64,000 nucleotides of DNA, taken from contig JAFWYP010000018.1 in NCBI GenBank assembly GCA_017517665.1, forward strand, positions 1 through 64,000, read 5' to 3'. Below are positions 1,047 through 14,561 of the stretch, in pieces (the stretch's first letter is position 1; each line of letters opens with the position of its first letter). The notes beneath the pieces are model-generated. The model saw only the letters and a list, made by a program, of their open reading frames with translations. It was not told the origin of the DNA and ran no database searches. The DNA is from Clostridia bacterium (GTDB lineage: Bacteria; Bacillota; Clostridia; Oscillospirales; Acutalibacteraceae). The position numbers and the translations under genes are program-made.

Positions 1047-1050
1047 AATA

Positions 1051-1935: not shown

Positions 1936-1970
1936 AACAAACAACCTTTCGTAAGTCAATAAATAAAGAA

Positions 1971-2013
1971 CCATCTCTTGAGGTAAGAATACCAAAAGAG
2001 ATGGCCTTTTTTT
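1971..2013 (-). terminator. Hairpin, probable terminator of the 48-codon gene
   Basis: A 9 bp perfect stem (CCATCTCTT at 1971-1979, AAGAGATGG at 1996-2004) follows the stop of the small minus-strand gene. On the minus strand it is followed by TTCTTTATTTATT, a loose U-tract. On the plus strand it is followed by CCTTTTTTT, but no plus-strand gene upstream needs it. It may be a weak terminator or attenuator ahead of the LRR gene. Confidence 0.5.
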
Positions 2014-2021
2014 GGTACATA

Positions 2022-2168
2022 TCAGACTTTGACTATATACATTATTCTGACGGACTGCCCTGTGTACATACTTCTGACGAGTTTTTCCGCTTCTGCGGCG
2101 CCCGTTGCGGAAACAATAGGCTCGGAATGCACATTGTTAATCTGGCAAACAACCTTCCATCTGTTCAA
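2022..2168 (-). CDS. Small protein (48 aa), TTG start, unknown
   Basis: A TTG start at 2168 is preceded by GGAGGTGA six bases upstream and opens a 48-codon frame ending with TGA at 2022. The product begins MNRWKVVCQINN and ends VRIMYIVKV, with a central helix-prone AAEAEKLVRSMY stretch. The alternation of beta-like ends and a helix suggests a small beta-alpha-beta fold. I do not recognise the family. The strong ribosome site, the placement between a 5' hairpin and a 3' terminator-like hairpin, and sensible codon use argue that it is real. It sits in accessory DNA near a defence-like cluster. Confidence 0.5.
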   Translation of the reverse strand: MNRWKVVCQINNVHSEPIVSATGAAEAEKLVRSMYTGQSVRIMYIVKV

Positions 2169-2175
2169 AAAATCA

Positions 2176-2211
2176 CCTCCCGTTACTTTGTAAATACATA
2201 GTAACAGGAGG
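2176..2211 (-). promoter_or_regulatory. Hairpin sequestering the ribosome site of the small gene
   Basis: On the minus-strand RNA an 11 bp stem forms between CCTCCTGTTAC and GTAACGGGAGG with a 14 nt loop. The stem's 3' arm contains the GGAGG that serves the TTG start at 2168. One pair is U-G in this RNA but would be C-A on the other strand, which suggests the structure matters in the minus-strand transcript. The loop also holds an ATG opening an 8-codon frame ending in the TGA just after the ribosome site. Confidence 0.5.
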
Positions 2212-2241
2212 CGTGGGCTGTTTTAGGGAGATGTTAATATT

Positions 2242-2661
2242 TTATCTGATTTGAGTGAGAGTTAATTCATCTTGTTTACCGCTGTAAAACTTCTGCAAAA
2301 CATCTGCAAAAAGTTCGTCTTTGGTGGCGTAATAAAACAAAGTCATGCATGAACAAAGTTTGAGATTATCGGGATAACCCATCACATCAAGGGCATCTCT
2401 TGATTTACATTCAAGAAGCGCACGGCAGATTTCTATGAGATTCTTGCCGAGATAACTGTCATTATAGAATTCTTTTGCTTCTTCGGCATCTTCAAGTCCG
2501 TAGAAAATAGCATTATGGCTGTAACCCAAAGATTTTAACTGTGGGAAAACATACCATATCCAATGTGACTGCTTGCAACCTGACTTGATTTCCCTCAACG
2601 CCACATCAAAAAACAACTTGTGCGGTTCATAAAAGCGTTCGATGTTCATATTATTGCTCAT
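2242..2661 (-). CDS. DUF1810 family protein
   Basis: This 139-residue protein matches DUF1810 (PF08837) by its hallmark SHWIWYVFPQLKSLGYSHNA near residues 32-51 and by the following HNAIFYGLEDAEEAKEFYND, where a helical region leads to a conserved LG(K)NLIEIC segment. It is a soluble, mainly helical protein of unknown biochemical role. It is the last gene of a minus-strand cluster, 10 bp after the Mrr-like nuclease gene, and no terminator is obvious after it. Its presence next to two nuclease-like genes is the only functional hint, and that is inference. Confidence 0.85.
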   Translation of the reverse strand: MSNNMNIERFYEPHKLFFDVALREIKSGCKQSHWIWYVFPQLKSLGYSHNAIFYGLEDAEEAKEFYNDSYLGKNLIEICRALLECKSRDALDVMGYPDNLKLCSCMTLFYYATKDELFADVLQKFYSGKQDELTLTQIR

Positions 2662-2671
2662 TCTGTAAAAA

Positions 2672-3775
2672 TCAGCTTATTTGTTCATATTTTTTTATAA
2701 ATCCAAGTTGATATTTAAACTCGCCAAGATCATCAAACTTATCAAATATTAATTTAGCAAGTCTTTCGCCGTCAATCAAAATAATATTATTTTCACTGGC
2801 ACTTGAAATTACATCCTCTGAAAAAACTCCGCTGGTTATAAAACAATATCTTATGTTATTTATGTCAACAGAGATATTCAGAGATGTGTCCTTTTCAAGT
2901 AATTCGACAACACCATTCGCCGCTTGTTCTTCTATTTGGTTTTTAAACTCTTTAATCTGTGTTAACCCATGGTTACTTGTGTTACCATCATAATGCTTTG
3001 CTTGAATATAATATACCGATGTGAATTCGTCACCTAATAAAGATTTTTTTATTGCGATAATATCTGCATCGGCAACACCTTTGCCGCATTGTTTGTTCAA
3101 GGTATATGACTCAAAGCCACATGAAGTGAAAAGCTTTGAAATAAGTTTCTCAAAACCAACGCCGTGGGCCTCAAGCGATGTTATTGCATAATTTTGCAGT
3201 GACTTATGTATCTTTTTTATAGTTTCATCATTTTCAAGTTCTTCTTTGTGTTCAAGTATTGTACTGCTTGATAAATCCTTTTGTTCATTTCTCAAGTTAT
3301 CGATTTCATGTTTGATTTTATCACCATCTATGGATAAAACGGTGAAACCTCTGCAACCGAGTTTTGTGGTTAAGGCTGTGTTTTTTCCTTTCCTTTTGAA
3401 ACGTAACGGAGTTCCGTTTTCAAGGATAAAATCTACTTTTAATTGATTGTATAAATAACCATCTTCACTTGCCTTTGAGTATTGGTAAACGTATTCACCT
3501 GTTGATTGTCCGATCATAAAACTATCACCACAAGGGACGACAACTATGTCACCTTTTTCAATACTCATAAACCTTATTATTTCATTTCTTTTTCTTCCTT
3601 TGAGTTGATTTGAAATATTTTCATCTTTGTAGTATGTTTCATCAACTTCTTTTATTAGGCTGGCAATGTCAGCTGTATATGATGAAAAATTAATGTTTTT
3701 CCAACCTACAGCAACAACACCGTCTTTAGCAAAATCATATGCATTATACATTGTTCTGACCATATAATATTTCAT
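2672..3775 (-). CDS. Mrr-like restriction endonuclease with PUA/EVE-like N-terminus
   Basis: This 367-residue protein has two parts. Residues 1-125 contain DGVVAVGW and GDIVVVPCGDSFMIGQ, resembling PUA/EVE-like modules that read modified bases. After a charged linker, residues 205-340 look like an Mrr catalytic domain: GFEKLISKLFTSCGF, then ADADII (acidic residue around 238), then YYIQAKHY, where Q258 and K260 fit the D...QxK form of the PD-(D/E)XK active site. Such proteins are typically type IV restriction enzymes that cut modified DNA. It is 20 bp downstream of a second nuclease gene and shares its operon. Target specificity is unknown. Confidence 0.7.
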   Translation of the reverse strand: MKYYMVRTMYNAYDFAKDGVVAVGWKNINFSSYTADIASLIKEVDETYYKDENISNQLKGRKRNEIIRFMSIEKGDIVVVPCGDSFMIGQSTGEYVYQYSKASEDGYLYNQLKVDFILENGTPLRFKRKGKNTALTTKLGCRGFTVLSIDGDKIKHEIDNLRNEQKDLSSSTILEHKEELENDETIKKIHKSLQNYAITSLEAHGVGFEKLISKLFTSCGFESYTLNKQCGKGVADADIIAIKKSLLGDEFTSVYYIQAKHYDGNTSNHGLTQIKEFKNQIEEQAANGVVELLEKDTSLNISVDINNIRYCFITSGVFSEDVISSASENNIILIDGERLAKLIFDKFDDLGEFKYQLGFIKKYEQIS

Positions 3776-3795
3776 TTATTCAAGTCTCCTTTATT

Positions 3796-4608
3796 TTAAA
3801 AATTAAAGTATTTTTCAAAAACCTTATCATTTCTTACTGTATCTAAAAGTTCTTCCCAATAAATTATATCAAACATGAAATCCGAAGCATTTTTTACACG
3901 TTTTTTTGCTTTTTCATAGTTTTTATTAATGCTTTCATTTTTTTGAGGAACAAGAAAAACAGTATAATTTTCGTTTTGGGCTAAGCAGATGTTGCGAACA
4001 AACTGGTAGTTGTTTTTATAATCAAGAAAAGTTATATGTGCATCGCTGTGGAATTTTTTCTGAAATTTTTCGTAATGGTTGTTGTCAACTGCTTCATTAT
4101 CGCCGATTTTTATCTTTTTACTTGCGTTTCCGAAGTTTTCTTCTGTATATTTTATTTCAAAATAAACCTTTTTGCCTTTATCAAGATAAATCACAAAATC
4201 TACACTTGTTTTATCTGCTGCCTCGTACTCCAGTTCTCCGTGTTTAGCGGCTTCAGGAATGCTCATACCGGTTTTATCATTGATAAATCTGATTATTCTG
4301 TTAAGTTCTGCAGGATTATTTATTATCGGATAAAAATATGAAACACAAAGAATCTGAGACGAGTTCAGATGACTCCAATGAGTATGTAATGTTATTGGCT
4401 TATCGGTATCTGACGGAATGAAAAGTTTATTATCGACTTGTTGATAATTGTTGCCTATCAAATTAAGATTCTCTTTTTCATAGCCTTTTGGAAGAATATG
4501 CTCGTAGTCGATTCCATTGATTGTTACATTGTCTGTAATTTTCAAAACCTCTCTTTTGTACCTACCGAGATGCGTCCATACTTGCGTTCTGAAATCTGTG
4601 TATTTCAT
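3796..4608 (-). CDS. PD-(D/E)XK nuclease-like protein, PGN_0703 type
   Basis: This 270-residue protein shows HLNSSQILCVSYFYPI (about residues 80-95), a signature I associate with PGN_0703-type putative restriction endonucleases. A PD-(D/E)XK core follows: D137 in SVDFVIYL and E151/K153 in YFEIKYTE. No DNA-recognition or methyltransferase domain is present. It lies 9 bp after the WYL regulator and 20 bp before the Mrr-like gene, which suggests a regulated two-nuclease unit. The first ATG is used, and no better alternative is seen. The nuclease call is from motif spacing, not from a profile search. Confidence 0.65.
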   Translation of the reverse strand: MKYTDFRTQVWTHLGRYKREVLKITDNVTINGIDYEHILPKGYEKENLNLIGNNYQQVDNKLFIPSDTDKPITLHTHWSHLNSSQILCVSYFYPIINNPAELNRIIRFINDKTGMSIPEAAKHGELEYEAADKTSVDFVIYLDKGKKVYFEIKYTEENFGNASKKIKIGDNEAVDNNHYEKFQKKFHSDAHITFLDYKNNYQFVRNICLAQNENYTVFLVPQKNESINKNYEKAKKRVKNASDFMFDIIYWEELLDTVRNDKVFEKYFNF

Positions 4609-4617
4609 AATTATTCC

Positions 4618-5670
4618 TCACTCTCCGTACTTCTCCACCGCTTTTTGCAGTGCGGTTTTTATATCATTCACAAGGCTTTCTGGGGATGTTACGGTTATAT
4701 GCTCGGCGTACTGCATCGCCCAGAATTTCATTGCCATTTTGCTGACTCTGACTTCAGCCGTTACCTCGTCTTCGGTTTCATCGCTGAATTTAACGTCCTT
4801 GCCGAACCAGTCAATAATTTCGGTAACAATGTATTTCTTTGCTCTGAATGTGACCTTTTCGGTCTTATCCGCAAACATATAAATATGCTCTGCCATATGT
4901 TTGGGCAAATCAAGTCCGTGTTCAAGACCCTCAACCTTTTTCATCGGTTTTACTGGAGTGTCAAGCAAGCGTATATCCGTTATTCTGTCAAGGCGGTAAT
5001 TTGATACGTTGTTGTATTTATCATAATTGCAGACAAGATAATATCTGCCGTTTGTGGCAACCATCTGATATGGGTTTACAATGTATTCTCTCACATTGCC
5101 CTCGCTGTTTTTGCGTGGGTGCTGTTTTTTGTCCGTACCCATATCGTTATACTTGAAAGCAACCTGTTTACCCTTGCTTATTGCCTCATCAAGAATTTCA
5201 ATCGTCAAGAAAAGTTCCTTATTCTGAGGCATATTCTCAGGTAAGTTGCGGATATGTTTTACTTTATTTCTGAAATATTTGTTTGAAAGCCCCTCAATTT
5301 TCTCAATTAATTCCTTGCACTGCGAATAGGGAATGTGCTTTGAGAAAAGCAGGCTGTCAATCAGCAGACGGAGTTCTGCATCTGTGAAATCACGCACAAG
5401 ATAAAAGTCTGAAAGAATATAGCTTTCTTCAAGCTCTCCCTTTGAATTCTTAACCATTCGCAGAGCTTCACTGTATTCGATTTCATAACCGAATTCAATC
5501 AGATTCATCAGATTGCGCTTGATTGCCTTGCGGTCAACCTTCATATCATATTCCGTTTCAAGAATCTCCGCAATCTCTTTCTGACTCAAACGGTGGTCTT
5601 CATCGGTATACTTTTTGAGAATATCAAGAATGTTGATTATGAGCAATTTTTTCGGCTGCATTGAGTCCAT
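4618..5670 (-). CDS. WYL-domain transcriptional regulator
   Basis: This 350-residue protein has an N-terminal winged helix (LSQKEIAEILETEY followed by RKAIKRNLMNL) and a WYL domain around residues 190-260 with NPYQMVATNGRYYLVCNY and NYRLDRITDI. A C-terminal WCX-like extension follows. WYL proteins often bind nucleic-acid or nucleotide ligands and control phage-defence operons. I chose the start at 5670 because AGAGGT lies seven bases upstream, while the longer frame to 5733 has no ribosome site. It is the first gene of the cluster and probably represses or senses for the nuclease genes that follow within 9-20 bp. Confidence 0.85.
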   Translation of the reverse strand: MDSMQPKKLLIINILDILKKYTDEDHRLSQKEIAEILETEYDMKVDRKAIKRNLMNLIEFGYEIEYSEALRMVKNSKGELEESYILSDFYLVRDFTDAELRLLIDSLLFSKHIPYSQCKELIEKIEGLSNKYFRNKVKHIRNLPENMPQNKELFLTIEILDEAISKGKQVAFKYNDMGTDKKQHPRKNSEGNVREYIVNPYQMVATNGRYYLVCNYDKYNNVSNYRLDRITDIRLLDTPVKPMKKVEGLEHGLDLPKHMAEHIYMFADKTEKVTFRAKKYIVTEIIDWFGKDVKFSDETEDEVTAEVRVSKMAMKFWAMQYAEHITVTSPESLVNDIKTALQKAVEKYGE

Positions 5671-5766
5671 AACTGTCACCTCTGTTTTTATTCTATCATC
5701 ATTGACACCATTATGCAATATGCCGTGGGACATTTTCGGTACATCTTTTTTTGTGTGACGGTCACG

Positions 5767-5832
5767 TCAACAAGTTTTTTCAACACAGGCGGTATCGATA
5801 TTAAATTCACAAGAAATAATGTTATTATTCAT
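5767..5832 (-). CDS. Possible 21-codon leader ORF upstream of the WYL gene
   Basis: An ATG at 5832 preceded by AAAAGGAG (11 bases upstream) opens a 21-codon frame, MNNNIISCEFNIDTACVEKT then Cys and TGA at 5767. Beyond this stop the same frame continues without another stop into the WYL gene. It could be a leader peptide or a remnant of a longer N-terminus cut by a stop codon. Spacing is long and evidence is thin. Confidence 0.3.
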   Translation of the reverse strand: MNNNIISCEFNIDTACVEKTC

Positions 5833-5876
5833 AAGTAAAAAAACTCCTTTTAATAGTTTGAAAAACGTAGGAAAAG

Positions 5877-5975
5877 TAGAGCTTGAAACCGTTGATACAT
5901 AAGGGATTGAAAGTGCGGTAATTGATGGGTACGTATAGTTTGACCCGTAACCCCGATTTTGCGGTTACTTTTTCC
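5877..5975. repeat. Diverged ~100 bp repeat, copy 1
   Basis: This copy shares blocks with 6048-6150: TAGAGCTT, GAAACCGTTG, AGTGCGGTAATT, GTATAGTTTGACC, GTAACCCCGATTTTGCGGTT and a final TTCCA. The left half is less symmetric than in copy 2. It is non-coding and lies in the 600 bp between the WYL regulator and the next plus-strand gene. It may be a remnant recombination or regulatory site. Confidence 0.75.
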
Positions 5976-6047
5976 ACATAACGAACTTTAAGGTTGCAAA
6001 AATCAAGTGATAAAAGACACTTTCATTACAGTTAAAAATTAACCAAA

Positions 6048-6150
6048 TAGAGCTTCTGAAACCGTTGTATATCAACGGTCTCAGAGTGCGGTAATTCAGG
6101 GGTGCGTATAGTTTGACCTGTAACCCCGATTTTGCGGTTCTATTGTTCCA
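6048..6150. repeat. Diverged ~100 bp repeat, copy 2
   Basis: This is the second copy of the repeat at 5877-5975. Here the left half contains a dyad, GAAACCGTTG-TATAT-CAACGGTCTC (about 6058-6082), followed by the shared AGTGCGGTAATT and GTAACCCCGATTTTGCGGTT blocks. The dyad resembles the inverted core sites often seen near integrase genes of Clostridial elements, but no integrase is adjacent. The functional reading is inference. Confidence 0.75.
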
Positions 6151-6201
6151 ATGCCAATTTTTAAATTGTAAGAATCGGGATAATTGCAAATTTGCAAAAA
6201 A

Positions 6202-6230
6202 TTGACAAGATTTCAAAAATTGATTATAAT
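6202..6230 (+). promoter_or_regulatory. Consensus sigma-A promoter
   Basis: TTGACA (6202-6207) and TATAAT (6225-6230) are separated by exactly 17 bases. It drives the small gene at 6283 and a leader of about 45 nt that can fold on GATAA-AT-TTATC type dyads. Confidence 0.85.
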
Positions 6231-6282
6231 ATAATTAGATAAGAAATTATCTCAGCGAGAACAAAGACATTCTCTCGGTCGA

Positions 6283-6486
6283 ATGGTCGAGGGGTTCAAT
6301 ACGGCGGGAAAGGAGATTTTAGCAACAGCCAACAAAGCTTCGCCGTTGAATTCCAAATGCAACGTCGAGCTGCCGCAGTCGGTAACCGACTCATTCGCAA
6401 GGTTTCTTGTGCCGGAGATACGAAAGTATTATGAATCCGAAGAAGGCAAAAAAGCGTTTGAAAAATGGCAGCAAGAAAATGGGTAA
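6283..6486 (+). CDS. Small conserved mobile-element-associated protein
   Basis: This small acidic frame (up to 67 codons) ends VELPQSVTDSFARFLVPEIR followed by KYYESEEGKKAFEKWQQENG. I recall this LPxSVTxxxARxLxPxIxxxxESEEG pattern in short proteins encoded next to recombinases of gut Firmicutes elements, which is memory rather than a search. The true start is uncertain: GGAAAGGAG lies at about 6306-6314, inside the frame, and would suggest a shorter product from a non-ATG start. It lies just outside the left end of the tRNA-Val element. It may be a leftover from an older insertion. Confidence 0.5.
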   Translation: MVEGFNTAGKEILATANKASPLNSKCNVELPQSVTDSFARFLVPEIRKYYESEEGKKAFEKWQQENG

Positions 6487-6522
6487 GACAGTAAGTCTAT
6501 GGTGACATAGCAACATATAAAT

Positions 6523-6562
6523 AAAAGAGAGCCAAGGCTTTAAACCTTGACTCTCTTTTCTG
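6523..6562 (+). terminator. Intrinsic terminator
   Basis: A 15 bp stem with one mismatch (AAAAGAGAGCCAAGG at 6523-6537, CCTTGACTCTCTTTT at 6545-6559) has a 7 nt loop and a U-tract. It ends the transcript of the small gene at 6283. Confidence 0.85.
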
Positions 6563-6631
6563 TTTTGCATCAGATCGGAACCCTTACGGCGAAACCGCCT
6601 TTGAAAAAATAAGTGTTCATCCAATGCCCGT

Positions 6632-6646
6632 TTGGTGGACATTAAC
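6632..6646. other. attL-like direct repeat
   Basis: TTGGTGGACATTAAC here is identical to 14485-14499, where it forms the 3' end of the tRNA-Val gene including its CCA. The flanks differ on both sides, as expected for attachment-site cores of an integrated element. Confidence 0.7.
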
Positions 6647-6804
6647 CAACACCTTTGGCATTCACCTTTTTTCGATACTTGCCTTTGGGGTTTTCAAATC
6701 CACACTTTCACTTCAACACTAAATACAATGAAAATATTGTATTTTTAGGATTATAGCATTTTCTTAATCACATTTCAACATATACAACTAAATTATTATT
6801 GATA

Positions 6805-6845
6805 AAAGCACGCTCTTTGCTTGAAGCATCGAGCGTGCTTTTTCT
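6805..6845. terminator. Intrinsic terminator at the left end of the element
   Basis: An 11 bp perfect stem (AAAGCACGCTC at 6805-6815, GAGCGTGCTTT at 6831-6841) is followed by TTTTTCT. The stretch 6647-6804 before it has no gene. It holds an AT-rich region with a small dyad (AAATACAAT / ATTGTATTT at 6721-6744). The terminator would insulate the element from outside transcription. Confidence 0.75.
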
Positions 6846-6948
6846 ATAATCATCCGTTGTGAATCGCTTTTTAAAACGGAACTTTTTGGTGAACTGTGTC
6901 AATGAAATTTCAAAATCAATGAATTATAATGTCGAAAGGAGTAAAAAA

Positions 6949-7224
6949 TTGAAGAATTTTGGAGGTGTTAGTATAAGCAAATTAACGCCTGAAAGGCTCA
7001 ACGGTGTCTACGCAGAATTGACTGATTTGGTTGGAATGGATAATATGATAAAAATTTATACCAACTATAAAGGTCAGCAAATTAACTTTCCCGTAAAGCT
7101 TTGGTCAAAGGACTATATTGCGGAACAAATCAAAGAAGAATACAACGGTCACAACATTGGTTCACTTGCAACAAAGTTCGGATATTCAGAACGTTGGATT
7201 CGGAAGATAGTCAACAACAAATAA
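6949..7224 (+). CDS. Mor-family transcription activator-like protein
   Basis: A TTG start at 6949 with AAAGGAG seven bases upstream gives a 91-residue protein. A helical N-terminal half (ERLNGVYAELTDLVGMDNMI) is followed by an INFPVKLWSKDYIAEQIKEE strand-helix segment and a C-terminal helix-turn-helix, IGSLATKFGYSERWIRKIV. This order matches the Mor/C (Mu middle operon regulator, PF08765) family found in phages and integrative elements. It is the first gene of the element and likely controls the downstream genes. The longer frame starting at 6859 has no ribosome site. Confidence 0.7.
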   Translation: MKNFGGVSISKLTPERLNGVYAELTDLVGMDNMIKIYTNYKGQQINFPVKLWSKDYIAEQIKEEYNGHNIGSLATKFGYSERWIRKIVNNK

Positions 7225-7242
7225 GGGTCGGGGGGTGAAGCA

Positions 7243-7566
7243 ATGGAAGCGTTTCAAGCATTCTTGGGATTTATTCTCGGCGTAATAATATTTCTTCTCA
7301 TACTATATAACCTAAAAATTATATTTATGGGATATCCAGTAATGATTTTCTTCTTTATGATTTCACTTGCAATCGGTATGATTCTTGCAAAAATATTCAG
7401 TTGGCTTGTAGTAATATTGATTGTTATAGGCATTGTTTTGTTTATACTTTCAAAATTTCTATTAAATGATTCACCGCCAAGTGATAAAGAAGGAGAAGAA
7501 GAAGCAACAACCGAGAATGAAACTCCAAAAGCAAACGAGCAAGAAACAAACACAACAGAAGAATAA
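7243..7566 (+). CDS. Small membrane protein with acidic tail
   Basis: This 107-residue product has hydrophobic segments at about residues 5-24, 30-48 and 52-72, giving two or three membrane helices. A polar, Glu/Thr-rich cytoplasmic-type tail (SDKEGEEEATTENETPKANE and on) follows. The start has GGGGGTG five bases upstream. The gene follows the Mor-like gene by 18 bp and precedes two single-helix membrane proteins. I do not recognise the family. A role at the cell envelope, such as mating-channel accessory, entry exclusion or signalling, would be guesswork. Confidence 0.6.
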   Translation: MEAFQAFLGFILGVIIFLLILYNLKIIFMGYPVMIFFFMISLAIGMILAKIFSWLVVILIVIGIVLFILSKFLLNDSPPSDKEGEEEATTENETPKANEQETNTTEE

Positions 7567-7585
7567 ATAAAAAGGAGCAACAAAA

Positions 7586-8167
7586 ATGGCAAACAACTAC
7601 AAAGAGAAACTCAATGAAATGGCAAATGAAGTAAAAAACACGGCAAATTCAATCGCAACCGAAGAAAACAAGCAAAAACTTGCAGAAGCAGCAAATACAA
7701 CGATGAAAAAAGCAAAGTCACTTGACAAAAAGACCTTGGCAATAATCGCAGCAGTTGTTGTGGCAGTAATTGCGGTATCATCTTTGTTTGGCAATGGAGC
7801 TGAAAAAGATGCAATAAAAGCTGTTGAAAAACATATGGAAGAACAGGGCTATGAGGTAACCAATTTAAAGGTCGAAGAAACATTTGAATTCAAATACAAG
7901 AAAAGCAATGCATTTGATAGCGGTGATACAGAGTTTATTGCAATAATCATCGGCGAATATAAAGGTGAGAAAGCAAAGGAAGAAGGCAGAAAATATTTCT
8001 GCTGCGAATATTCCTTCATGGACTATAAGGACAAAGACAAGGGCGACTATGACAACTTCAGTCCTCAAAGTTTCAATGAGAAATCTTATATAAAAGATGC
8101 CGTAGACTCCGTAATTGAATATAACAAAGACCGTGAAAAGCAGCTTAAAAAGAATGGTGATATATAA
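7586..8167 (+). CDS. Single-helix membrane protein, unknown
   Basis: The 193-residue protein begins with a lysine-rich amphipathic helix (residues 1-48), then one membrane helix (LAIIAAVVVAVIAVSSLFG, about 50-70) and a soluble domain of about 120 residues with a KKYFCCEYSF-like stretch. The segment after the helix, SLFGNGAEKDAIKAVEKHM, resembles SLFGGNKSEKALEEYIAEYY in the next gene, which suggests the two are distant paralogues. AAAAGGAG lies upstream of the ATG. No known domain is recognised. Confidence 0.6.
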   Translation: MANNYKEKLNEMANEVKNTANSIATEENKQKLAEAANTTMKKAKSLDKKTLAIIAAVVVAVIAVSSLFGNGAEKDAIKAVEKHMEEQGYEVTNLKVEETFEFKYKKSNAFDSGDTEFIAIIIGEYKGEKAKEEGRKYFCCEYSFMDYKDKDKGDYDNFSPQSFNEKSYIKDAVDSVIEYNKDREKQLKKNGDI

Positions 8168-8186
8168 AAATAAAGTGGTGAAAAAC

Positions 8187-8642
8187 ATGAGTGACAATAC
8201 AATCAACACTTCGACAGAATCAGTTGAATCCCCCTCAACTAAACCCAAGAAAAAACTTAAAACAATTGTAATTGTTGCAGTTGCTTTTATAGTTGCAATA
8301 GGTGTGTTTTCATTATTCGGCGGTAACAAGAGCGAAAAAGCACTTGAAGAATATATTGCCGAGTATTACAATGATGAAATCAAAAAAATCAAAGAGGTAT
8401 GGAGCAAGGAATACGAAGTTGATTTAGGCTACAACAATTGGGTTGATACAGAGGCAGTTATATATCAAGTAATAGGCGAAGATTTATACTATGCCTGCTT
8501 GGTTACAACTGCAGGTGATTATGTAGATATAGAGGCACAGGTCTATTCGGAAAAATCAGATATGAAAGACGGTCTGAAAGAATTAGAAGAAGTTGCTAAA
8601 TACGCCATTAAAGACGGCAAAAAAGAAGGTATTATAAAGTAA
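8187..8642 (+). CDS. Single-helix membrane protein, paralogue of the preceding gene
   Basis: I chose the ATG at 8187 (AGTGGTG just upstream), giving 151 residues. The upstream in-frame ATG at 8115 overlaps the previous gene by 53 bases and lacks a ribosome site. A Ser/Thr/Lys-rich N-terminus is followed by one membrane helix (TIVIVAVAFIVAIGVFSLFG) and an acidic soluble domain of about 100 residues. It has the same architecture and a similar post-helix motif as the gene at 7586. Function is unknown. Confidence 0.6.
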   Translation: MSDNTINTSTESVESPSTKPKKKLKTIVIVAVAFIVAIGVFSLFGGNKSEKALEEYIAEYYNDEIKKIKEVWSKEYEVDLGYNNWVDTEAVIYQVIGEDLYYACLVTTAGDYVDIEAQVYSEKSDMKDGLKELEEVAKYAIKDGKKEGIIK

Positions 8643-8647
8643 TCAAA

Positions 8648-8686
8648 TCCCGTTCAATCGGACAAAACCGACTGAACGGGATTTTT
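8648..8686 (+). terminator. Intrinsic terminator
   Basis: A 14 bp stem (TCCCGTTCAATCGG / CCGACTGAACGGGA, one G-U type mismatch) has the loop ACAAAA and ends in TTTTTG. It closes the Mor-like and membrane-protein transcript of the element. Confidence 0.9.
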
Positions 8687-8701
8687 GTATAAGGAGGCAA
8701 T

Positions 8702-8773
8702 ATGCAATATTTTATTCTTGGATTTGTGGTAGGATTCACAGTATTATCCGTCACAGACAAAGCATTTCTTTGA
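8702..8773 (+). CDS. 23-codon hydrophobic micro-ORF
   Basis: AAGGAGG four bases before the ATG opens a 23-codon frame (MQYFILGFVVGFTVLSVTDK then AFL) that is almost entirely one hydrophobic helix. It is followed 17 bp later by another short ORF with its own ribosome site. It may be a micro-membrane-protein or a leader. The ribosome site is the main support. Confidence 0.45.
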   Translation: MQYFILGFVVGFTVLSVTDKAFL

Positions 8774-8790
8774 AAGGTAGGTGAAAAATA

Positions 8791-8931
8791 ATGTTATCAG
8801 CTTTATTTGTAACAACAGCATTATCCGCTTCGGCTAAAACGGCAATAGAACTTTTCGGTTGCGGTGTGGTTGCAGCAATGAATCTCTACTGCGGAACTAA
8901 GCTTCCGAGAAACAAGAGGGCAAAATCATGA
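8791..8931 (+). CDS. 46-codon small protein
   Basis: An ATG at 8791 with AGGTAGGTG upstream opens a 46-codon frame, MLSALFVTTALSASAKTAIE followed by LFGCGVVAAMNLYCG and a basic tail PRNKRAKS. The first 30 residues are hydrophobic with small residues, so it may be membrane-inserted. It ends in TGA overlapping the ATG of the next gene (ATGA), which indicates translational coupling and supports its being a real gene. No family is recognised. Confidence 0.55.
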   Translation: MLSALFVTTALSASAKTAIELFGCGVVAAMNLYCGTKLPRNKRAKS

Positions 8932-9350
8932 CAATAATCAATACTCTTAATGACATTGAAGAAAGCAACCTCGATTTCCGTCTGAAACACTACTTAAACA
9001 AGCGTTTTCGTGTCCTTTCCCAATCATTAAAAACTGAAAATTTAGTATGCTTCGGTTCAATATTTGTATTTGATGATGTTTCTGATTCAAGCACTCTTTC
9101 TGACATCGGCATACATTGTCAGCCGTCCGAAATAATCTTTGAAAGCGTTACAAAAATCCATATCTTACACAGCCGAGAGGAATACAACATTCTTCTTGGC
9201 TGTGTTGTTTTAAACAATGATTATGCGGTTGATATTGTATGCATAGAAGGCATAGGCAATAAAGAACTTGAAGCAAATATGATTTCAAACATTGACCGAG
9301 AAGAAATATGGTTTTATCCACAAGGAGAACAAAATGAACAACACAATTGA
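8928..9350 (+). CDS. Hypothetical protein of the element
   Basis: This 140-residue soluble protein is coupled by an ATGA overlap to the preceding small ORF and overlaps the DUF1643 gene by 17 bases. It has a helical N-terminus (DIEESNLDFRLKHYLNKRFR) and then alternating beta segments such as LVCFGSIFVFDDV and NILLGCVVLNNDYAVDIVCI. I do not recognise a family or active site. The tight packing with DUF1643 suggests they act together. Confidence 0.55.
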   Translation: MTIINTLNDIEESNLDFRLKHYLNKRFRVLSQSLKTENLVCFGSIFVFDDVSDSSTLSDIGIHCQPSEIIFESVTKIHILHSREEYNILLGCVVLNNDYAVDIVCIEGIGNKELEANMISNIDREEIWFYPQGEQNEQHN

Positions 9351-9825
9351 AAGAACAAGCGAAATAAAAACAACGGCAATATTCAGCAAGGATTTGAAAC
9401 ACAGATATTGTCTGAAAATTGAGTGGAACAATAAAAAGAAATCTTGTGCCATTCTGATGACATACCCAAGCACGGCAGACGAATTCATCCTCGACCAAAC
9501 AACAATGCTCGTCAGAAACGGGGCAATCAAAAACGACTTCGGCTCTGTTTCAATCGTCAACATCTTTTCGCTTCTTGAAGCCGAACTCCCCAAAAGCGAC
9601 AGAATAAACGCTTCTGTTGTTCTTCGGGAGTGTTCCGATGCTGACATCATCCTCGTTGCATTCGGCAGGAATACGGCACACCAGGAGCAAAAAGAACGGA
9701 TGCTTGAAATGCTCACAGACTACAAAGACAAGCTCCACACCATCATTGACAAAAACGGCAGTCCGTACTCTCACCCTCTTTCGCCCAAGGCAAGAGAATG
9801 GAAAATCGAGAAGCTGAAAATCTGA
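9334..9825 (+). CDS. DUF1643 family protein
   Basis: The start at 9334 (GGAG six bases upstream) gives 163 residues. The protein carries the DUF1643 (PF07799) pattern: RYCLKIEWN, then AILMTYPSTADEFILDQTTM, the VSIVNIFSLLEAELPKS block, and a Rossmann-like ADIILVAFGRNT followed by a short C-terminal DKNGSPYSHPLSPKAREWK. DUF1643 proteins are common on plasmids and integrative elements, and their biochemistry is unknown. A hairpin follows, so this is the last gene of its transcript. Confidence 0.85.
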   Translation: MNNTIERTSEIKTTAIFSKDLKHRYCLKIEWNNKKKSCAILMTYPSTADEFILDQTTMLVRNGAIKNDFGSVSIVNIFSLLEAELPKSDRINASVVLRECSDADIILVAFGRNTAHQEQKERMLEMLTDYKDKLHTIIDKNGSPYSHPLSPKAREWKIEKLKI

Positions 9826-9831
9826 ACGAAG

Positions 9832-9871
9832 CAAGGCAAAGTATTTTTAAAAAATCCGATACTTTGCCTTG
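9832..9871 (+). terminator. Stem-loop, probable terminator
   Basis: A 13 bp stem (CAAGGCAAAGTAT / ATACTTTGCCTTG) with a 14 nt loop directly follows the DUF1643 stop. The trailing sequence GATTTTCGGATTTTC is only moderately U-rich. Confidence 0.6.
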
Positions 9872-10072
9872 GATTTTCGGATTTTCGGGAAAGTCGCCGT
9901 TTCACCGCCTTGAACAAAGGCAAACGCATTTTCAAAAAGTGGATTTTTTTTGGAAAAACTCCAAAGTGAATCCGTTCATAAAAAATTAATAAATTCAACT
10001 GCCACAGCCATATAGGCATAACAAGTTATGGGTATAACCGAGTGTTCATAAAACAACCCGATTTTGCACCTA
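9872..10072. other. Gene-free stretch upstream of the DUF927 gene
   Basis: No gene is seen here. The stretch contains two GTTCATAAAA-type words (about 9975 and 10043), A/T-tracts around 9943-9960 and the small dyad ATAACAAGTTAT (about 10018-10029). Its place upstream of the helicase-like gene would suit a replication origin or control region, but I see no clear iterons. Confidence 0.3.
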
Positions 10073-10101
10073 TTGACGAATTGTAATTTTCTGCGTAACA
10101 T
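10073..10101 (+). promoter_or_regulatory. Probable promoter of the DUF927 gene
   Basis: TTGACG (10073-10078) and TAACAT (10096-10101) are separated by 17 bases, about 35 bases before the gene start. The match is good at -35 and moderate at -10. Confidence 0.6.
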
Positions 10102-10135
10102 ATAAGTACAGTCCAGACGAAAGGAGGCGAAAAAT

Positions 10136-11833
10136 ATGAGTACAATCGATTTTTCAAAAAAATACAAATTATCGGATGAAGGTTTTTTAAAAGCCAAAGA
10201 GTCGGTTGTTTTTCCGTATTTTTTCAAAGGTGAAAACGGAAAATGCACATTTATCTGTCGAATAGTCTCAAATAAAGATAAAACATATAATTTCATTTCA
10301 AGTGGCATAGAAGTATCAAAAAAATATATTGACTTAGACAGTGGAAAAGTTAAATTTTTAATAACATACAATAACGGCATAAAAATGTCGAAAAAATATG
10401 CAGAGCGTTCCATTCTTTCAAAAAGCGGAATTGAAAAACTTATAAACTACGGTGTTTCATTCAACACAGATAAACCTAAACATTTGATTAATTATCTTAT
10501 GGCTTCGGAACAGATTGCCCCCGTTGAATATTCACACACCCAACTCGGATGGGATAAGCTGAATGGAAAAACCGTTTTCAAAAGCGGAAAACTTATTTCA
10601 GCCGATGAAAGCGGTGCAAAAAGCACATATTTCGGAAACCTTGACCTTGTTCCTTCGGGAAGCAGGGAAAAGTGGTTCGAAATGGTCAAAACGGAAGTCA
10701 TAGGCAATATTCCTTTGACAACCGTTATGCTCGCTGGTTTTGCAAGTCCGATACTCGGCTACTTGAACCAAAAGTATGACCTTGGTTCTGTTTTGCTTAA
10801 CCTATCAAATTCCAGCAGTAAAGGAAAAACAACTGCGGCTATGCTTGCGACAAGCGTATTCGGCAATCCTGCGATGAACAAGTCAACGCTAATCACATTT
10901 AATGCAACTAATAATGCTCTCGTCAACTTTGCGTCACAATGCAATTCGCATACAATCGCCCTTGATGAAGCGGTCATTAGTACAGCAAGCGATGTGACAA
11001 AGCAATTATATACCCTTTGTTCTGGCAGGGATAAACTTCGCCTTAATACGGATAGCGAGCTTAAAGAAGCATCCACTTTTTCCTCTTTCATAATTTCAAC
11101 AGCCGAGTTTGATTTGATACCAGATTCAGCTACAAATGGCATCAGAGCGAGAGTCTTTGAACTTAAAGATACTTTCACTACATCAGCCGAAAACAGCGTT
11201 AAAATCAAGTCAATCGTAGCCGAAAACTACGGCTTTGCAGGAGCAGAATTCGTTGAATTTTTATTAAAAGAAAAAATAAATAATATTGAAAAAGACTATC
11301 TTAAATGTCAGTCTGAACTTATGAGTGAATATAACGAAGAATTTGCCCCTTGCAAAAAAGGAGAATTGACCGAGAGGGTATTTTCAAAACTCGCAATTTT
11401 ATTACAAACTGCGATATATTTTGAAAAATGCTTCGGCATAAAAATAGAAGGAAATTTTATCGAGTATCTCAAAAAGATTGAAAAAAGCGTTCAAGGCAAT
11501 TCCGATAGGTCGGCATTCCTTCTTGAATGCATCAAACGCTCTGTCGGAGACAACGCAAGCAAATACATCACAAATCCGAGCAATGCATTTTCGGGTGCTC
11601 TCGGCAAAATCACAACAGACAGCAAAGGTACAAAAAAAATAATAATTACTGTTTCAGAAGCTAATCGTATTTTTGAAGTAAACAACATTGAAAATCCGAA
11701 AAATCTTCTCCAACAGTTAAAGAAAGACAAAATATTGCTTTGCGAAAAAGACAGATTATACAAAAGAATTCAGCTCTGTCCCTTTACACACGTAAAGCAA
11801 CATTGCTATGAATTTATCGTAGATATGATTTAA
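10136..11833 (+). CDS. DUF927 domain protein (helicase/primase-like)
   Basis: The 565-residue protein fits the DUF927 (PF06048) family of mobile-element ATPases. A beta-rich N-terminus (about 1-130) contains SHTQLGWDKLNGKTVF. A central domain has GYLNQKYDLGSVLLNLSNSS followed by SKGKTTAAMLATSVFG, a Walker A-like loop near residue 228. TIALDEAVI near 281 acts as a Walker B-like segment, and ISTAEFDLIPDSATNGIRAR as a sensor or arginine-finger region. Such proteins are thought to unwind DNA or prime replication. AAAGGAGG precedes the ATG. It is the largest protein of the element besides the recombinase and is its likely replication or mobilisation ATPase. Confidence 0.8.
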   Translation: MSTIDFSKKYKLSDEGFLKAKESVVFPYFFKGENGKCTFICRIVSNKDKTYNFISSGIEVSKKYIDLDSGKVKFLITYNNGIKMSKKYAERSILSKSGIEKLINYGVSFNTDKPKHLINYLMASEQIAPVEYSHTQLGWDKLNGKTVFKSGKLISADESGAKSTYFGNLDLVPSGSREKWFEMVKTEVIGNIPLTTVMLAGFASPILGYLNQKYDLGSVLLNLSNSSSKGKTTAAMLATSVFGNPAMNKSTLITFNATNNALVNFASQCNSHTIALDEAVISTASDVTKQLYTLCSGRDKLRLNTDSELKEASTFSSFIISTAEFDLIPDSATNGIRARVFELKDTFTTSAENSVKIKSIVAENYGFAGAEFVEFLLKEKINNIEKDYLKCQSELMSEYNEEFAPCKKGELTERVFSKLAILLQTAIYFEKCFGIKIEGNFIEYLKKIEKSVQGNSDRSAFLLECIKRSVGDNASKYITNPSNAFSGALGKITTDSKGTKKIIITVSEANRIFEVNNIENPKNLLQQLKKDKILLCEKDRLYKRIQLCPFTHVKQHCYEFIVDMI

Positions 11834-11852
11834 AAGAAAGGAGGTATTCTCA

Positions 11853-12236
11853 ATGGACATATCAATCCTTGAGAATGCGAAAAAATTCAAACGCATTCCG
11901 AAGCAATCAAACGCTCAAAGAAGCTGCATTACTATAGTATATGCTCCAACGGGCAAGAGAATTGAACTTTCCAAAAAAGTTCACGAAATGCTTGGTAATG
12001 CCGAAAAGGTCGAGTTCTTATTCGACAGCGACAAAAAAGTTCTTATAGTTTACCCCGATGAAAACGGTTCATCGGTAAAAATCAATAAGAACAAAGCCGT
12101 TGTTTATGATTCTGAACTTATCAAGGAAATCATAACCGAATTCAACCTCGATTTCGAAAACCGTTCAAGCATGGGATTCGAAAAATTTGAAGCCGTTGAA
12201 GGCAAAGAAAATACCGTCTGTATTTTCCTTAAATAA
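11853..12236 (+). CDS. Hypothetical protein downstream of DUF927
   Basis: This 127-residue protein is preceded by AAAGGAGG and follows the DUF927 gene by 19 bp. It has a basic N-terminus (AKKFKRIPKQSNAQR) and a beta-rich body (CITIVYAPTGKRIELSKKV, KVEFLFDSDKKVLIVYPDEN). This layout would suit a small DNA-binding accessory protein, but I recognise no family. Coupling to the helicase-like gene is the main clue. Confidence 0.55.
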   Translation: MDISILENAKKFKRIPKQSNAQRSCITIVYAPTGKRIELSKKVHEMLGNAEKVEFLFDSDKKVLIVYPDENGSSVKINKNKAVVYDSELIKEIITEFNLDFENRSSMGFEKFEAVEGKENTVCIFLK

Positions 12237-12312
12237 AAGCACCTCTTGTGCTTATCACAAAATTAGCTAAAAGCTAATCCCAAGGGTTTATAACCGTCCC
12301 GAGCTTCTCGGG
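12237..12312 (+). promoter_or_regulatory. Three consecutive hairpins in the leader of a 46-codon ORF
   Basis: Three short stem-loops follow each other: AAGCAC-CTCTT-GTGCTT (12237-12253), ATTAGCT...AGCTAAT (about 12262-12278) and CCCGAG-CTT-CTCGGG (12298-12312). The GGGAGGTG ribosome site follows 19 bases later. The first may end the previous gene. The set could form a regulatory leader. Confidence 0.45.
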
Positions 12313-12343
12313 AAAGATAAAATAACTCACGGGAGGTGCAAAC

Positions 12344-12484
12344 ATGAAAGAGCTTAATTTCTGTGTCATTTCAAAAAATGAAGATGAGAAACAAAGCGGT
12401 GATTTCACTGCGGATAATGACCTCTTTAATGAGGTGGTTTCTATAATAACAGAAGAAATAATATTTAAAATCGAAAATAAATAA
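12344..12484 (+). CDS. 46-codon acidic small protein
   Basis: GGGAGGTG five bases before the ATG opens a 46-codon frame: MKELNFCVISKNEDEKQSGD, then FTADNDLFNEVVSIITEEII and a short FKIENK tail. The product is acidic with a likely C-terminal helix. Its position, 118 bases before the recombinase and behind three leader hairpins, would suit a small regulator such as a recombination directionality factor or anti-repressor, but that is speculation. No family is recognised. Confidence 0.5.
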   Translation: MKELNFCVISKNEDEKQSGDFTADNDLFNEVVSIITEEIIFKIENK

Positions 12485-12505
12485 ATTTGAAATATAATGA
12501 CACAA

Positions 12506-12541
12506 CGCCCGACTACAACTTAAAAAAATTGCAGTCGGGCG
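12506..12541 (+). terminator. Stem-loop, probable terminator
   Basis: A 13 bp stem with one mismatch (CGCCCGACTACAA / TTGCAGTCGGGCG) has an A-rich 10 nt loop. The following TAACTATCTCTATTTT is only moderately U-rich. It separates the 46-codon gene from the recombinase. Confidence 0.6.
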
Positions 12542-12601
12542 TAACTATCTCTATTTTAAAAAATATATTATAACTTTGAATAAAAACAAGGAGTGATTTT
12601 T

Positions 12602-14263
12602 ATGAGCGAAACACTTGAACATATTAACTTACAACCTGCGGTAGGATATTGCCGTTATTCATCAAACGCACAACGTGAAGAATCAATCGCAGCACAAAAA
12701 AGAGCCATCGGAAGCTACTGTGCAATAAGCGGCTACGAAATCGTCGAATGGTATTGCGATGAAGCCGTTTCGGGTACAACCGATAAAAGACCCGAATTCC
12801 AACGCCTCATTTCTGATATTGAAAACCATAAAGTAAAAACGCTTATTGTGCATAAATTAGACCGCTTTTCGAGAAATAAAAAAGATACGTTTAATTATAT
12901 GGATTTATGCGAAGATTGCGGAGTAAAGCTTATTTCTGTTTCAGAACCTATCGGAAATTCACCTGCAGACAAAATGATGGTGACTGTTCTTTCGGGTATA
13001 AATGAATATTACTCGCTGAACCTTTCAGGCGAAGTAATGAAGGGCATGAAGGAAAACGCCTACAAATGCGAATCTACGGGCGGTCCGCCCCCTCTCGGCT
13101 ATGATATGGTGAATAAAAAGCTTGTCATCAACGAAAAGGAAGCAGAAGCAGTCAGACTAATCTATGAAATGTGTGCCGAAGGATATGGCTACGGAAAGAT
13201 TATTGACCGCTTAAATCTTCTCGGATACAGAACTAAAAAAGGCAATAAATTCGCAAAAAATTCTTTATGCGACTTAATTACAAACGAAAAATACAAGGGT
13301 GTTTATGTTTTTAATAAACGCTCAAGTAAAGCAAAGAGAGATAAAAAGCGTAACAACCACAAATACAAACCAGATGAAGAAATCATCAGAATCCCTGGCG
13401 GATGCCCTGCAATAGTCAGCGAGGAGCTTTGGAATAAAGCAAATTCGGTTCGCAAGGTCACTGGCAAATTCAAATCCAACGCCAAAAGACAGTACCTTCT
13501 CACAGGTATGCTCGTATGCGGTGAGTGTGGTGCGAAAATGCACGGTAATTTGAGAACATCAACAAAAGGTCACAAGTATATGACATACAGATGCAACAAC
13601 CGCATCAATCAGCACTCTTGCAGTAAAAAAGAAATCAGAACCGAAATCGTTGACGATTTTGTACTTGATGAGATTTTCAAAAACTTTTTCACTGATGCAA
13701 CCATCAGCAAATTAACAGATGCCGTAAACAAGCATAAAAGCAAAATCCTTTCATCAAACGACAGATATCAGAATGTGAAAGAAGGACTTGAAGCCGACAT
13801 TAAAACAAGAGATGTTTTGATTGAAGCATTAGAGGAAACAAGCAGCATCGCAATCAGTTCAAGAATCAAAGAAATCGAAGAAAAAATAGCCACCTCTCAA
13901 AGCTTCATTCTCAACTATAAAAAAGCTTGCAGAACAAAGCTCACCGATGATGATATAAAAGCTGCTCTTGAACCTCTCAAAGAGCGTATGAAAAAGGCTG
14001 AAAGCATTGAGCAAACAAAGCTTATTCTTTCACATCTGATTGATAAAATAGTAATCAGCGACAGCGAAATAACCTTATATCTTAAATTCTCCGTTCCTCA
14101 AAGTGAGGAAGAAAAAGCGGAAGAAATTGACGTTGAGCCTTTTGTTTTTGACTCAACAATAAGCAGAAAAGCAATTGAAACATATAAATCCTTAAATCAG
14201 GAATTATACGTCAGTCCTGATATGTTTAAAACCAGATTAAAATCATTCACATACAGAAACTAA
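12602..14263 (+). CDS. Large serine recombinase (element integrase)
   Basis: The start at 12602 (AAGGAG eight bases upstream) gives 553 residues. The N-terminal resolvase domain has VGYCRYSSNAQREESIAAQ with catalytic Ser20, and later KLDRFSRNKKDTF. The Recombinase domain follows (GGPPPLGYDMVNKKLVINEK, NEKYKGVYVFNKR). A zinc ribbon starts with GMLVCGECGAKM and continues to YRCNN...HSC. A C-terminal coiled coil spans about 370-500. Such enzymes integrate elements by attP x attB crossover and need a directionality factor to excise. The gene lies 220 bp from the tRNA-Val repeat and is the obvious candidate for inserting this element. Confidence 0.95.
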   Translation: MSETLEHINLQPAVGYCRYSSNAQREESIAAQKRAIGSYCAISGYEIVEWYCDEAVSGTTDKRPEFQRLISDIENHKVKTLIVHKLDRFSRNKKDTFNYMDLCEDCGVKLISVSEPIGNSPADKMMVTVLSGINEYYSLNLSGEVMKGMKENAYKCESTGGPPPLGYDMVNKKLVINEKEAEAVRLIYEMCAEGYGYGKIIDRLNLLGYRTKKGNKFAKNSLCDLITNEKYKGVYVFNKRSSKAKRDKKRNNHKYKPDEEIIRIPGGCPAIVSEELWNKANSVRKVTGKFKSNAKRQYLLTGMLVCGECGAKMHGNLRTSTKGHKYMTYRCNNRINQHSCSKKEIRTEIVDDFVLDEIFKNFFTDATISKLTDAVNKHKSKILSSNDRYQNVKEGLEADIKTRDVLIEALEETSSIAISSRIKEIEEKIATSQSFILNYKKACRTKLTDDDIKAALEPLKERMKKAESIEQTKLILSHLIDKIVISDSEITLYLKFSVPQSEEEKAEEIDVEPFVFDSTISRKAIETYKSLNQELYVSPDMFKTRLKSFTYRN

Positions 14264-14266
14264 AAT

Positions 14267-14305
14267 TTGGGCAGACACAACACCGTGTCTGCCCAAACTC
14301 TTTGC
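14267..14305 (+). terminator. Intrinsic terminator of the recombinase gene
   Basis: A perfect 12 bp stem (TTGGGCAGACAC / GTGTCTGCCCAA) with a 6 nt loop is followed by ACTCTTTGCTTTTTTG. The remaining 14306-14484 holds no gene, only a second dyad (ATGCACGGG / CCCGTGCAT, 14454-14481) just after the tRNA 3' end. Confidence 0.85.
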
Positions 14306-14484
14306 TTTTTTGAACCGTTCCGAACGAATTCACAACGGCAACAAATTTCGATTTGAGAATAAAAACCACTTCAAATTCCTCGTTTTTGCACGCAAAAACA
14401 TCGGAACATAGAAATTTTTGCTTTTCCGCTCTCAAAAAGCCGTTGCATGAGAAATGCACGGGCATAAATATACCCGTGCATTCA

Positions 14485-14499
14485 TTGGTGGACATTAAC
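14485..14499. other. attR-like direct repeat (tRNA-Val 3' end)
   Basis: This is the second copy of TTGGTGGACATTAAC. Bases from 14486 on are the acceptor end of tRNA-Val with CCA. Insertion here leaves the tRNA intact and places the element downstream of it. Confidence 0.7.
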
Positions 14500-14561
14500 G
14501 GACTCGAACCGCTGACCCTTCGCACGTCAAGCGAATGCTCTACCAGCTGAGCTAAATGTCC
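14486..14561 (-). tRNA. tRNA-Val (GAC)
   Basis: This is a 76 nt cloverleaf with an encoded CCA. The acceptor GGACATT pairs with AATGTCC, the D arm is GCTC/GAGC, the anticodon stem is TTCGC/GCGAA around the loop TTGACGT (anticodon GAC), and the T arm contains TTCGAGT. It reads GUC and GUU valine codons. It is transcribed alone from a consensus promoter and serves as the attachment site of the 7.9 kb element. Confidence 0.95.

Follow-up and report, generated by a model that had tools for sequence, protein, structure and literature searches.

A probable integrative cassette related to staphylococcal cassette chromosome elements at the 3' end of a tRNA-Val gene in a Clostridia bacterium

Tyrosine integrases are the usual enzymes at the 3' ends of tRNA genes (PMC4383910). 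Serine recombinases have been described at tRNA genes too, and are called rare there, the instances given being actinomycete integrative and conjugative elements (AICEs) of Mycobacterium at tRNA-Leu and the phage phiRSM1 at tRNA-Ser (PMC3218068); in Dehalococcoides, DsiB, a relative of the recombinase CcrB, is described at the transfer-messenger RNA (tmRNA) gene (PMC3146451). The core of staphylococcal cassette chromosome (SCC) elements is given as LP1413 and Cch, the Ccr recombinases, and small open reading frames (ORFs) for DUF950 (SaUGI), DUF960 and DUF1643 (PMC7581432), and SCC-like islands are reported at protein genes, with ccrDE at rimL (PMC10581047) and an Enterococcus cassette chromosome at rlmH (PMC6222049). 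The word “tRNA” is absent from the main text of a survey of large serine recombinases (PMC10083194), and no SCC-like element in a tRNA gene surfaced in literature searches covering the titles and abstract openings of open-licence papers. Here we analyse a stretch of 64,000 nucleotides from a Clostridia bacterium of the gut (contig JAFWYP010000018.1 of assembly GCA_017517665.1), which we call the window, in a genome we call G000. At one tRNA-Val gene it carries what we consider quite probably to be a 7.85-kb SCC-related integrative cassette, placed at the 3' end of the tRNA by its serine recombinase, which rebuilds the tRNA in the same reaction. The element and its relatives widen the class of serine recombinases at tRNA and tmRNA genes, already in print but called rare. 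The features that carry this reading are as follows.

6632-6646, plus strand: distal direct repeat, the displaced tRNA-Val 3' end and outer element junction (repeat search, empty sites)
9334-9825, plus strand: DUF1643 protein (PF07799), an SCC core gene (Pfam)
10136-11833, plus strand: Cch-like DUF927 replicative helicase with the Cch C-terminal helix-turn-helix (PF06048, PF18662; Pfam, NCBIfam, PDB)
12602-14263, plus strand: large serine recombinase of 553 aa, frame intact (PF00239, PF07508, PF13408; Pfam)
14440-14485, minus strand: strong hairpin directly behind the tRNA 3' end, supplied by the element (z -4.35)
14485-14499, plus strand: tRNA-side direct repeat, the tRNA-Val acceptor end plus one base (repeat search, tRNA call)
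14486-14561, minus strand: tRNA-Val(gac), the target gene (tRNA call)

A preliminary description had proposed that 15-bp repeats bound a block of about 7.9 kb, one copy being the tRNA-Val acceptor end, and both points hold. The exact 15-mer TTGGTGGACATTAAC lies at 6632-6646 and 14485-14499, with no third copy in the window at up to two mismatches (chance expectation for this search 0.15 matches; 2 of 100 shuffles reached 2), and because the tRNA occupies 14486-14561 on the minus strand, 14 of the 15 repeat bases are its acceptor end. Fears that the 15-mer might be frequent elsewhere by chance are not borne out: its 13-base core GGTGGACATTAAC has exactly two copies in the available 2,766,191-base genome (88.67% complete), both at the element, with none on the other strand and none for the reversed control. 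If crossover took place within the repeat, the element is 7,853 bp long. The tRNA-Val gene is intact after insertion, its old 14-15 base acceptor end and the old downstream DNA having been displaced to the far side. An empty site joining base 6631 to base 14500, which the preliminary description had suggested looking for in related genomes, occurs naturally in two of them (G008 and G033), where tRNA-Val runs directly into the sequence outside base 6632, rejoined at the repeat. Identity to that sequence is 96.4% over 615 bp in G008 and 98.9% over 273 bp in G033, both alignments starting in the repeat; in the bases printed, the real attB sites differ from the predicted one by A/G in the repeat and C/T in the tRNA, and that of G008 also by one base at the far end. 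Other relatives have different sequences behind tRNA-Val. Of the features by which the Islander definition recognises a tRNA genomic island, the intact tRNA and the displaced fragment flanking the island are both present, and a tyrosine integrase is absent among the ten element ORFs searched with Pfam.

Resolvase, Recombinase and zinc ribbon domains, all over cut-off in one chain, make the enzyme whose gene ends 222 bp from tRNA-Val a large serine recombinase by definition. It is the sole recombinase recognised on the element and, judged from its sequence and position, likely the integrase. The gene list of the preliminary description (Mor-like regulator, small membrane proteins, DUF1643, DUF927, integrase) stands except that its integrase is a large serine recombinase and not a tyrosine integrase. 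The tRNA-proximal hairpin recurs in all five elements folded, with z between -3.1 and -6.5 in the four others, one of them folded on the complementary strand; the first 50 bases of the displaced flank form no hairpin (z 0.01). The whole genome (2.77 Mb) gives 18 matches to serine recombinases at E values of 0.001 or better.

Homologous elements occupy the same tRNA-Val gene in a genome of the same genus (G017) and in a metagenome-assembled genome from goat rectum (RGIG3084). Their direct repeats are 14 bp long, against the 15 bp of the preliminary description. The tRNA itself reads ACATT in G000 and ACGTT in G017 and RGIG3084, and the two repeat copies of each genome agree with the form of its own tRNA. 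Between G017 and RGIG3084 the element sequence is 86.6% identical over 6,292 bp and 97.0% over a further 397 bp, with one internal stretch of 228 bp at only 73%, whereas the detected flank matches reach 68-79%, a contrast that points to horizontal transfer. Among the 36 other genomes of the genus, a close relative of the recombinase is found in G017 (80%) and the next is that of G033 (40%); G017 alone has a close helicase relative, and G019 gives a weak match (6e-18). The goat-rectum element also encodes, on the opposite strand, a 347-aa cargo protein (positions 3368-4411 of its locus, L079, minus strand), an ORF not seen in the window element.

Helicase searches covered 394 genomes of the order and 60 relatives, and twelve stretches around matches were read; a phage-collection search with the recombinase added one family element (MT835879.1). 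Choosing elements that have the helicase and a close recombinase together gave a family of eight, namely those of the window, G017, RGIG3084, G118, G217, G222, G204 and the human faecal record MT835879.1. Four of the twelve stretches fall in the family, six contain the helicase but no such recombinase (L145, L147, L148, L149, L151, L152), and two have more distant recombinases (L144, 26%; L150, with two of 37% and 34%). In all eight family elements the order is P140-DUF1643-Cch-recombinase in one direction, P140 being recognised with a profile built from members of six of the eight. This small protein and a second one that enters the comparison with SCC lie here as follows.

8928-9350, plus strand: P140, in all eight family elements, upstream of DUF1643 (in G204, of DUF960-DUF1643)
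11853-12236, plus strand: P127, a small protein encoded between the helicase and recombinase genes (without family or fold assignment)

In G204 a DUF960 protein (2.5e-19) sits between P140 and DUF1643, and because DUF960 follows P140 there, P140 occupies the place of the SCC gene for DUF950 (SaUGI). A second block in G118, on contig C34, has P140, DUF960 and DUF1643 by coordinates. Behind the recombinase, seven of the eight elements have the 3' end of an RNA gene: tRNA-Val in three, tmRNA in three and tRNA-Leu(caa) in one. Exact displaced copies of the 3' end of at least 12 bases were found in the window (15), RGIG3084 (14), G217 (12) and G222 (12), and in more distant elements at tRNA-Ser(gct) in G033 (13) and tRNA-Leu(gag) at locus L108 (13). 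That search took in 18 items, two of them without such a recombinase at a tRNA, and covered the recombinase side of each locus over about 10 kb or less, the G017 repeat having been measured separately; on the right-hand side of the tRNA the search yielded runs of 4-11 across all 18.

Three further loci are of note. The G033 element (L066 10592-16157, contig C25), 5.5 kb long, has inserted at tRNA-Ser(gct), of which 13 bp are found displaced; besides a related recombinase it encodes a second protein, smaller and resolvase-like. In G022 (contig C8, L065 7489-8480) tRNA-Ala(cgc) is followed by the same kind of element end with a match to the C-terminal part of the recombinase only (44% identity), seemingly, on sequence grounds, a decayed relative at another tRNA. 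The record MT835879.1 (L241), filed as “Bacteriophage sp.” from human faeces, holds its family element next to a tmRNA gene and has the look of a bacterial chromosome.

The combination of genes had been held to be no named element type. It does, however, contain SCC core genes: a Cch-type DUF927 helicase, a large serine recombinase and DUF1643 are shared with pattern 1 of the SCC description in PMC7581432 (LP1413-Cch, CcrAB, DUF950-DUF960-DUF1643), and the G204 relative adds DUF960. Both kinds of element lie at the 3' end of a gene, a tRNA here and rlmH in SCC. Against the SCC Cch1 model NF047345 the helicase scores 9.6e-58 over residues 46-541 (496 of 542 positions), and its nearest solved structure is PDB 5dgk, “Active helicase” (1e-38), followed by 8tch, “Pathogenicity island protein” (6e-15). 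We take 5dgk to be the Cch of SCCmec and 8tch, presumably, to be the Rep of a Staphylococcus aureus pathogenicity island (SaPI). The best NCBIfam model for the recombinase is CcrB (7.6e-58). There are also differences, with one recombinase here against CcrA plus CcrB, a gene order that resembles a circular permutation, and P127 downstream of the helicase where SCC has the single-stranded-DNA-binding protein LP1413 upstream of Cch in one operon. For P140 no Pfam or sequence match to DUF950/SaUGI was found, and no fold link with a structure model that is too weak to decide; P127 has no family match and no match to solved LP1413, with a structure model too poor for a verdict (predicted local distance difference test score, 42).

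Several observations weigh against calling the element SCC-related, or against the tRNA as its target. The helicase reaches 196 bits where the Cch1 equivalog cut-off is 700, and the recombinase 196 bits where that of CcrB is 900; the CcrB match is moreover unspecific, since two ordinary relatives taken as controls, L034 and L051, also hit CcrB first (167 and 168 bits). Nor are the helicase, DUF1643, Mor-like and recombinase genes peculiar to SCC, since PHROGs phage families match all four (phrog_8841, a phage primase/helicase family, 1.4e-50; a DUF1643 family, 1.5e-22; phrog_95 for the recombinase, 4.7e-121; and the Mor-like protein as well), and 23 of 50,697 phage records have a recombinase match at E 1e-40 or better. 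No SaUGI, LP1413 or CcrA partner was recognised in the element, and DUF960 is absent from this genome at its 88.67% completeness. The G204 element (L146 6573-12506) has neither tRNA nor tmRNA in the 19.9 kb read, and ten of 16 recombinase loci, G118 included, lack a displaced tRNA fragment of at least 12 bases. Finally, excision, transfer and enzyme activity are here predictions from sequence. We do not file the element as SCC, because it was tested for the SCC target, for the Ccr cut-off and for the complete set of small ORFs and matched none of the three: no CcrA, CcrB or CcrC reaches its curated cut-off, the insertion is not at the rlmH 3' end, and of DUF950, DUF960 and DUF1643 only DUF1643 is found here. 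We describe it instead as an element that works like SCC and shares part of the SCC core.

To place the recombinase among its relatives we assembled 118 loci, comprising the window, 29 of the 30 from the same-genus search (the thirtieth being the window again), 32 of the 33 from a second search and 56 new ones from two further searches (E limit 1e-60), leaving out L080 as a second G017 record and 13 listed matches lacking a locus. Two of the loci are identical (L087 and L189) and three nearly so (L091, L092 and L102). In 38 of the 109 loci that could be assessed, the end of the recombinase has the 3' end of a tRNA or tmRNA facing it at no more than 520 bp, and in 71 there is no such neighbour; across the 118 loci no tRNA or tmRNA lies downstream on the other strand or upstream within a like distance (9 loci being too short downstream and 5 upstream). 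The targets are tmRNA (15), tRNA-Leu(gag) (5), Ser(gct) (4), Val(gac) (3), Met(cat) (3), Gln(ctg) (2), Ala(ggc) (2) and one each of Gly(ccc), Leu(caa), Leu(tag) and Arg(tcg). Ranked by tblastn E value to the window recombinase, the share at such genes is 6/7 (to 1e-120), 27/53 (to 1e-80), 4/25 (to 1e-60) and 1/24 (weaker), shares which are not rates for all serine recombinases because similarity to the window decided which loci were taken. In a quick tree of 116 rows (two short rows omitted, and staphylococcal and enterococcal Ccr and Dehalococcoides DsiB not included) the tRNA/tmRNA label is clustered, with 19 changes against 31.5 in shuffles and none of 500 shuffles as low, though not in a single clade; one clade of 34 rows has no tRNA or tmRNA neighbour (32 assessable), and the window recombinase belongs to a clade of seven rows (SH-aLRT 99).

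The Dehalococcoides ssrA islands are among the closest printed parallels, sharing a CcrB-related large serine recombinase at an RNA gene 3' end and a displaced 3'-end repeat (20 bp there) (PMC3146451). The end of the dsiB gene lies over the att site as described, and likewise the recombinase frame runs into the tRNA or tmRNA gene in 29 of the 38 loci here, though not in the window. Those islands are, however, described with DsiA and ParB-, Mom- and RecF-like genes at a tmRNA site, where this element has Cch and DUF1643 at tRNA-Val, and no ParB or Mom family matches occur in its ORFs. The Mycobacterium AICEs and phiRSM1 share the serine recombinase and the tRNA target and differ in being, respectively, conjugative and a filamentous phage (PMC3218068), while the ccrDE island at rimL (PMC10581047) and the Enterococcus cassette (PMC6222049) have SCC-type recombinase genes at a changed or shared target that, unlike here, is a protein gene.

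Taking these results together, we tentatively offer a broader possibility, to which we would give well under even odds: SCC may be a single branch within a larger family of serine-recombinase cassettes that usually sit at tRNA or tmRNA 3' ends. In Clostridia the recombinase family would have come to use tmRNA and no fewer than ten tRNA genes (Val, three Leu, Ser, Gly, Gln, Ala, Arg and Met), rebuilding each as tyrosine integrases do, and rlmH would be a derived target of cassettes whose genes (Cch, DUF960, DUF1643, recombinase) were already together in gut anaerobes. With a recombinase family repeatedly at such genes, tRNA and tmRNA islands may be under-counted. Work on how target choice is encoded could also draw on these loci, a natural set of related serine integrases that between them use many RNA genes, and the relatives outside staphylococci are material for asking about the origin of SCC and its replication after excision.

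As the preliminary description had stated, no relaxase, secretion or capsid genes are seen in the element: families for relaxase, conjugation, secretion, capsid, terminase and tail all stay below cut-off among its ten ORFs in Pfam, and all but tail were also sought, with the same result, in nine ORFs with NCBIfam. It could be an integrative and mobilizable element (IME) that needs no more than an origin of transfer (oriT) to be carried along by a conjugative element, an option we regard as rather unlikely although it is compatible with an SCC-related cassette. The absence of own transfer genes over cut-off would fit, as would the reported movement of an SCC-like Enterococcus cassette in the presence of a conjugative plasmid (PMC6222049) and a weak match of the 150-aa cargo protein to NF045849, a pilin-like conjugal transfer family (0.0056, 16.3 bits against a cut-off of 40); on the other side, no relaxase was found in the element ORFs with Pfam, and no oriT search was made.

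A phage satellite akin to SaPIs and phage-inducible chromosomal islands (PICIs), or an element of phage descent, that a helper phage induces and packages seems to us unlikely. The preliminary description had named a minimal satellite as one possibility beside a mobilizable element, and the helicase is indeed related to 8tch and to phrog_8841, so that a DUF927-type Rep helicase (8tch, if it is the SaPI Rep we assume) would be shared with the SaPI/PICI replication module; Mor-like proteins are phage late activators in PHROGs, and related recombinases occur in some phages (40.6% in Moorella phage MCACPph1). Yet the helicase is far closer to 5dgk than to 8tch, a scan of viral contigs limited to close relatives gave no close helicase relative, the recombinase matched four distant ones there, and, unlike SaPIs and PICIs, the element has no packaging genes over cut-off and no tyrosine integrase. 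Equally improbable is a decayed remnant that has lost mobility: the small size, and DUF960 missing here while present in the G204 relative, would fit, but neither the helicase frame nor that of the recombinase is broken, the sister elements share both conserved ends and the two repeat copies match perfectly. We regard it as very improbable that an earlier or lost element left the tRNA repeats through a tyrosine integrase of its own and that the serine recombinase is a passenger. Tyrosine integrases are usual at tRNA 3' ends, and 14-15 bp is long beside the very short repeats that serine-recombinase IMEs of Firmicutes are said to have (PMC5704250), though streptococcal rumA elements are given repeats of 2-21 bp (PMC4701971). 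Against this reading, no tyrosine recombinase matches the ten element ORFs, and in 38 of 109 assessable loci related serine recombinases stand against tRNA or tmRNA 3' ends, always in one orientation, with the frame running into the gene in 29 of the 38.

For an SCC-related cassette the following course may be envisaged. The attP site would carry a copy of the tRNA end and the serine recombinase would join it to the chromosomal tRNA; recombination would therefore restore the tRNA and place a new hairpin behind its 3' end. On the excised circle, replication would be started by the Cch-like helicase, following the proposal made for SCC, and by that analogy the cassette probably replicates once excised. 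P127, P46 (below) and P140 may be accessory replication or host-interaction proteins, and transfer between cells would depend on outside machinery such as a conjugative plasmid, a phage or competence.

Every ORF between the repeats with a family match or a conserved relative is encoded on the plus strand, as had been noted. The other parts of the element are the following.

6647-6852, no strand: conserved non-coding element end beside the distal repeat (sister alignments)
6952-7224, plus strand: Mor-like transcription regulator (PF08765; Pfam, PHROGs)
7243-7566, plus strand: 107-aa cargo protein, hydrophobic stretches by inspection (no family over cut-off)
7586-8167, plus strand: 193-aa cargo protein, one hydrophobic stretch by inspection (no family over cut-off)
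8190-8642, plus strand: 150-aa cargo protein (29% identical to the 193-aa protein over part of its length)
9826-10135, no strand: intergenic region with a perfect 13-bp inverted repeat, 9832-9844 and 9859-9871 (in both sister elements too)
12344-12484, plus strand: P46, a 46-aa ORF (conserved in both sister elements)

The element end is 94% identical to RGIG3084 over 6633-6741 and 84% identical to G017 over 6633-6852, and a hairpin lies within it at 6804-6842. The Mor-like regulator has a tblastn relative in four of the seven other family elements. We interpret the inverted repeat of 9826-10135 as a terminator or a candidate origin. Around P46, the stretch 12239-12600 is non-coding with several inverted repeats and by eye similar in the sister elements; it may be a regulatory RNA, a terminator or an origin.

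Just outside the distal repeat, the flank at 5779-6646 is 95% identical to G008 over 870 bp, and the core across the tRNA from it only about 74% identical to the same genome; on this comparison of sequences the flank block itself seems to be horizontally shared. Beside the element, on the minus strand at 210-5733, lie genes for WG-repeat, leucine-rich-repeat and DUF1810 proteins, Mrr-type and REase-ARP/PDDEXK nucleases and a WYL regulator, a block that by its predicted content would be restriction- or defence-like.

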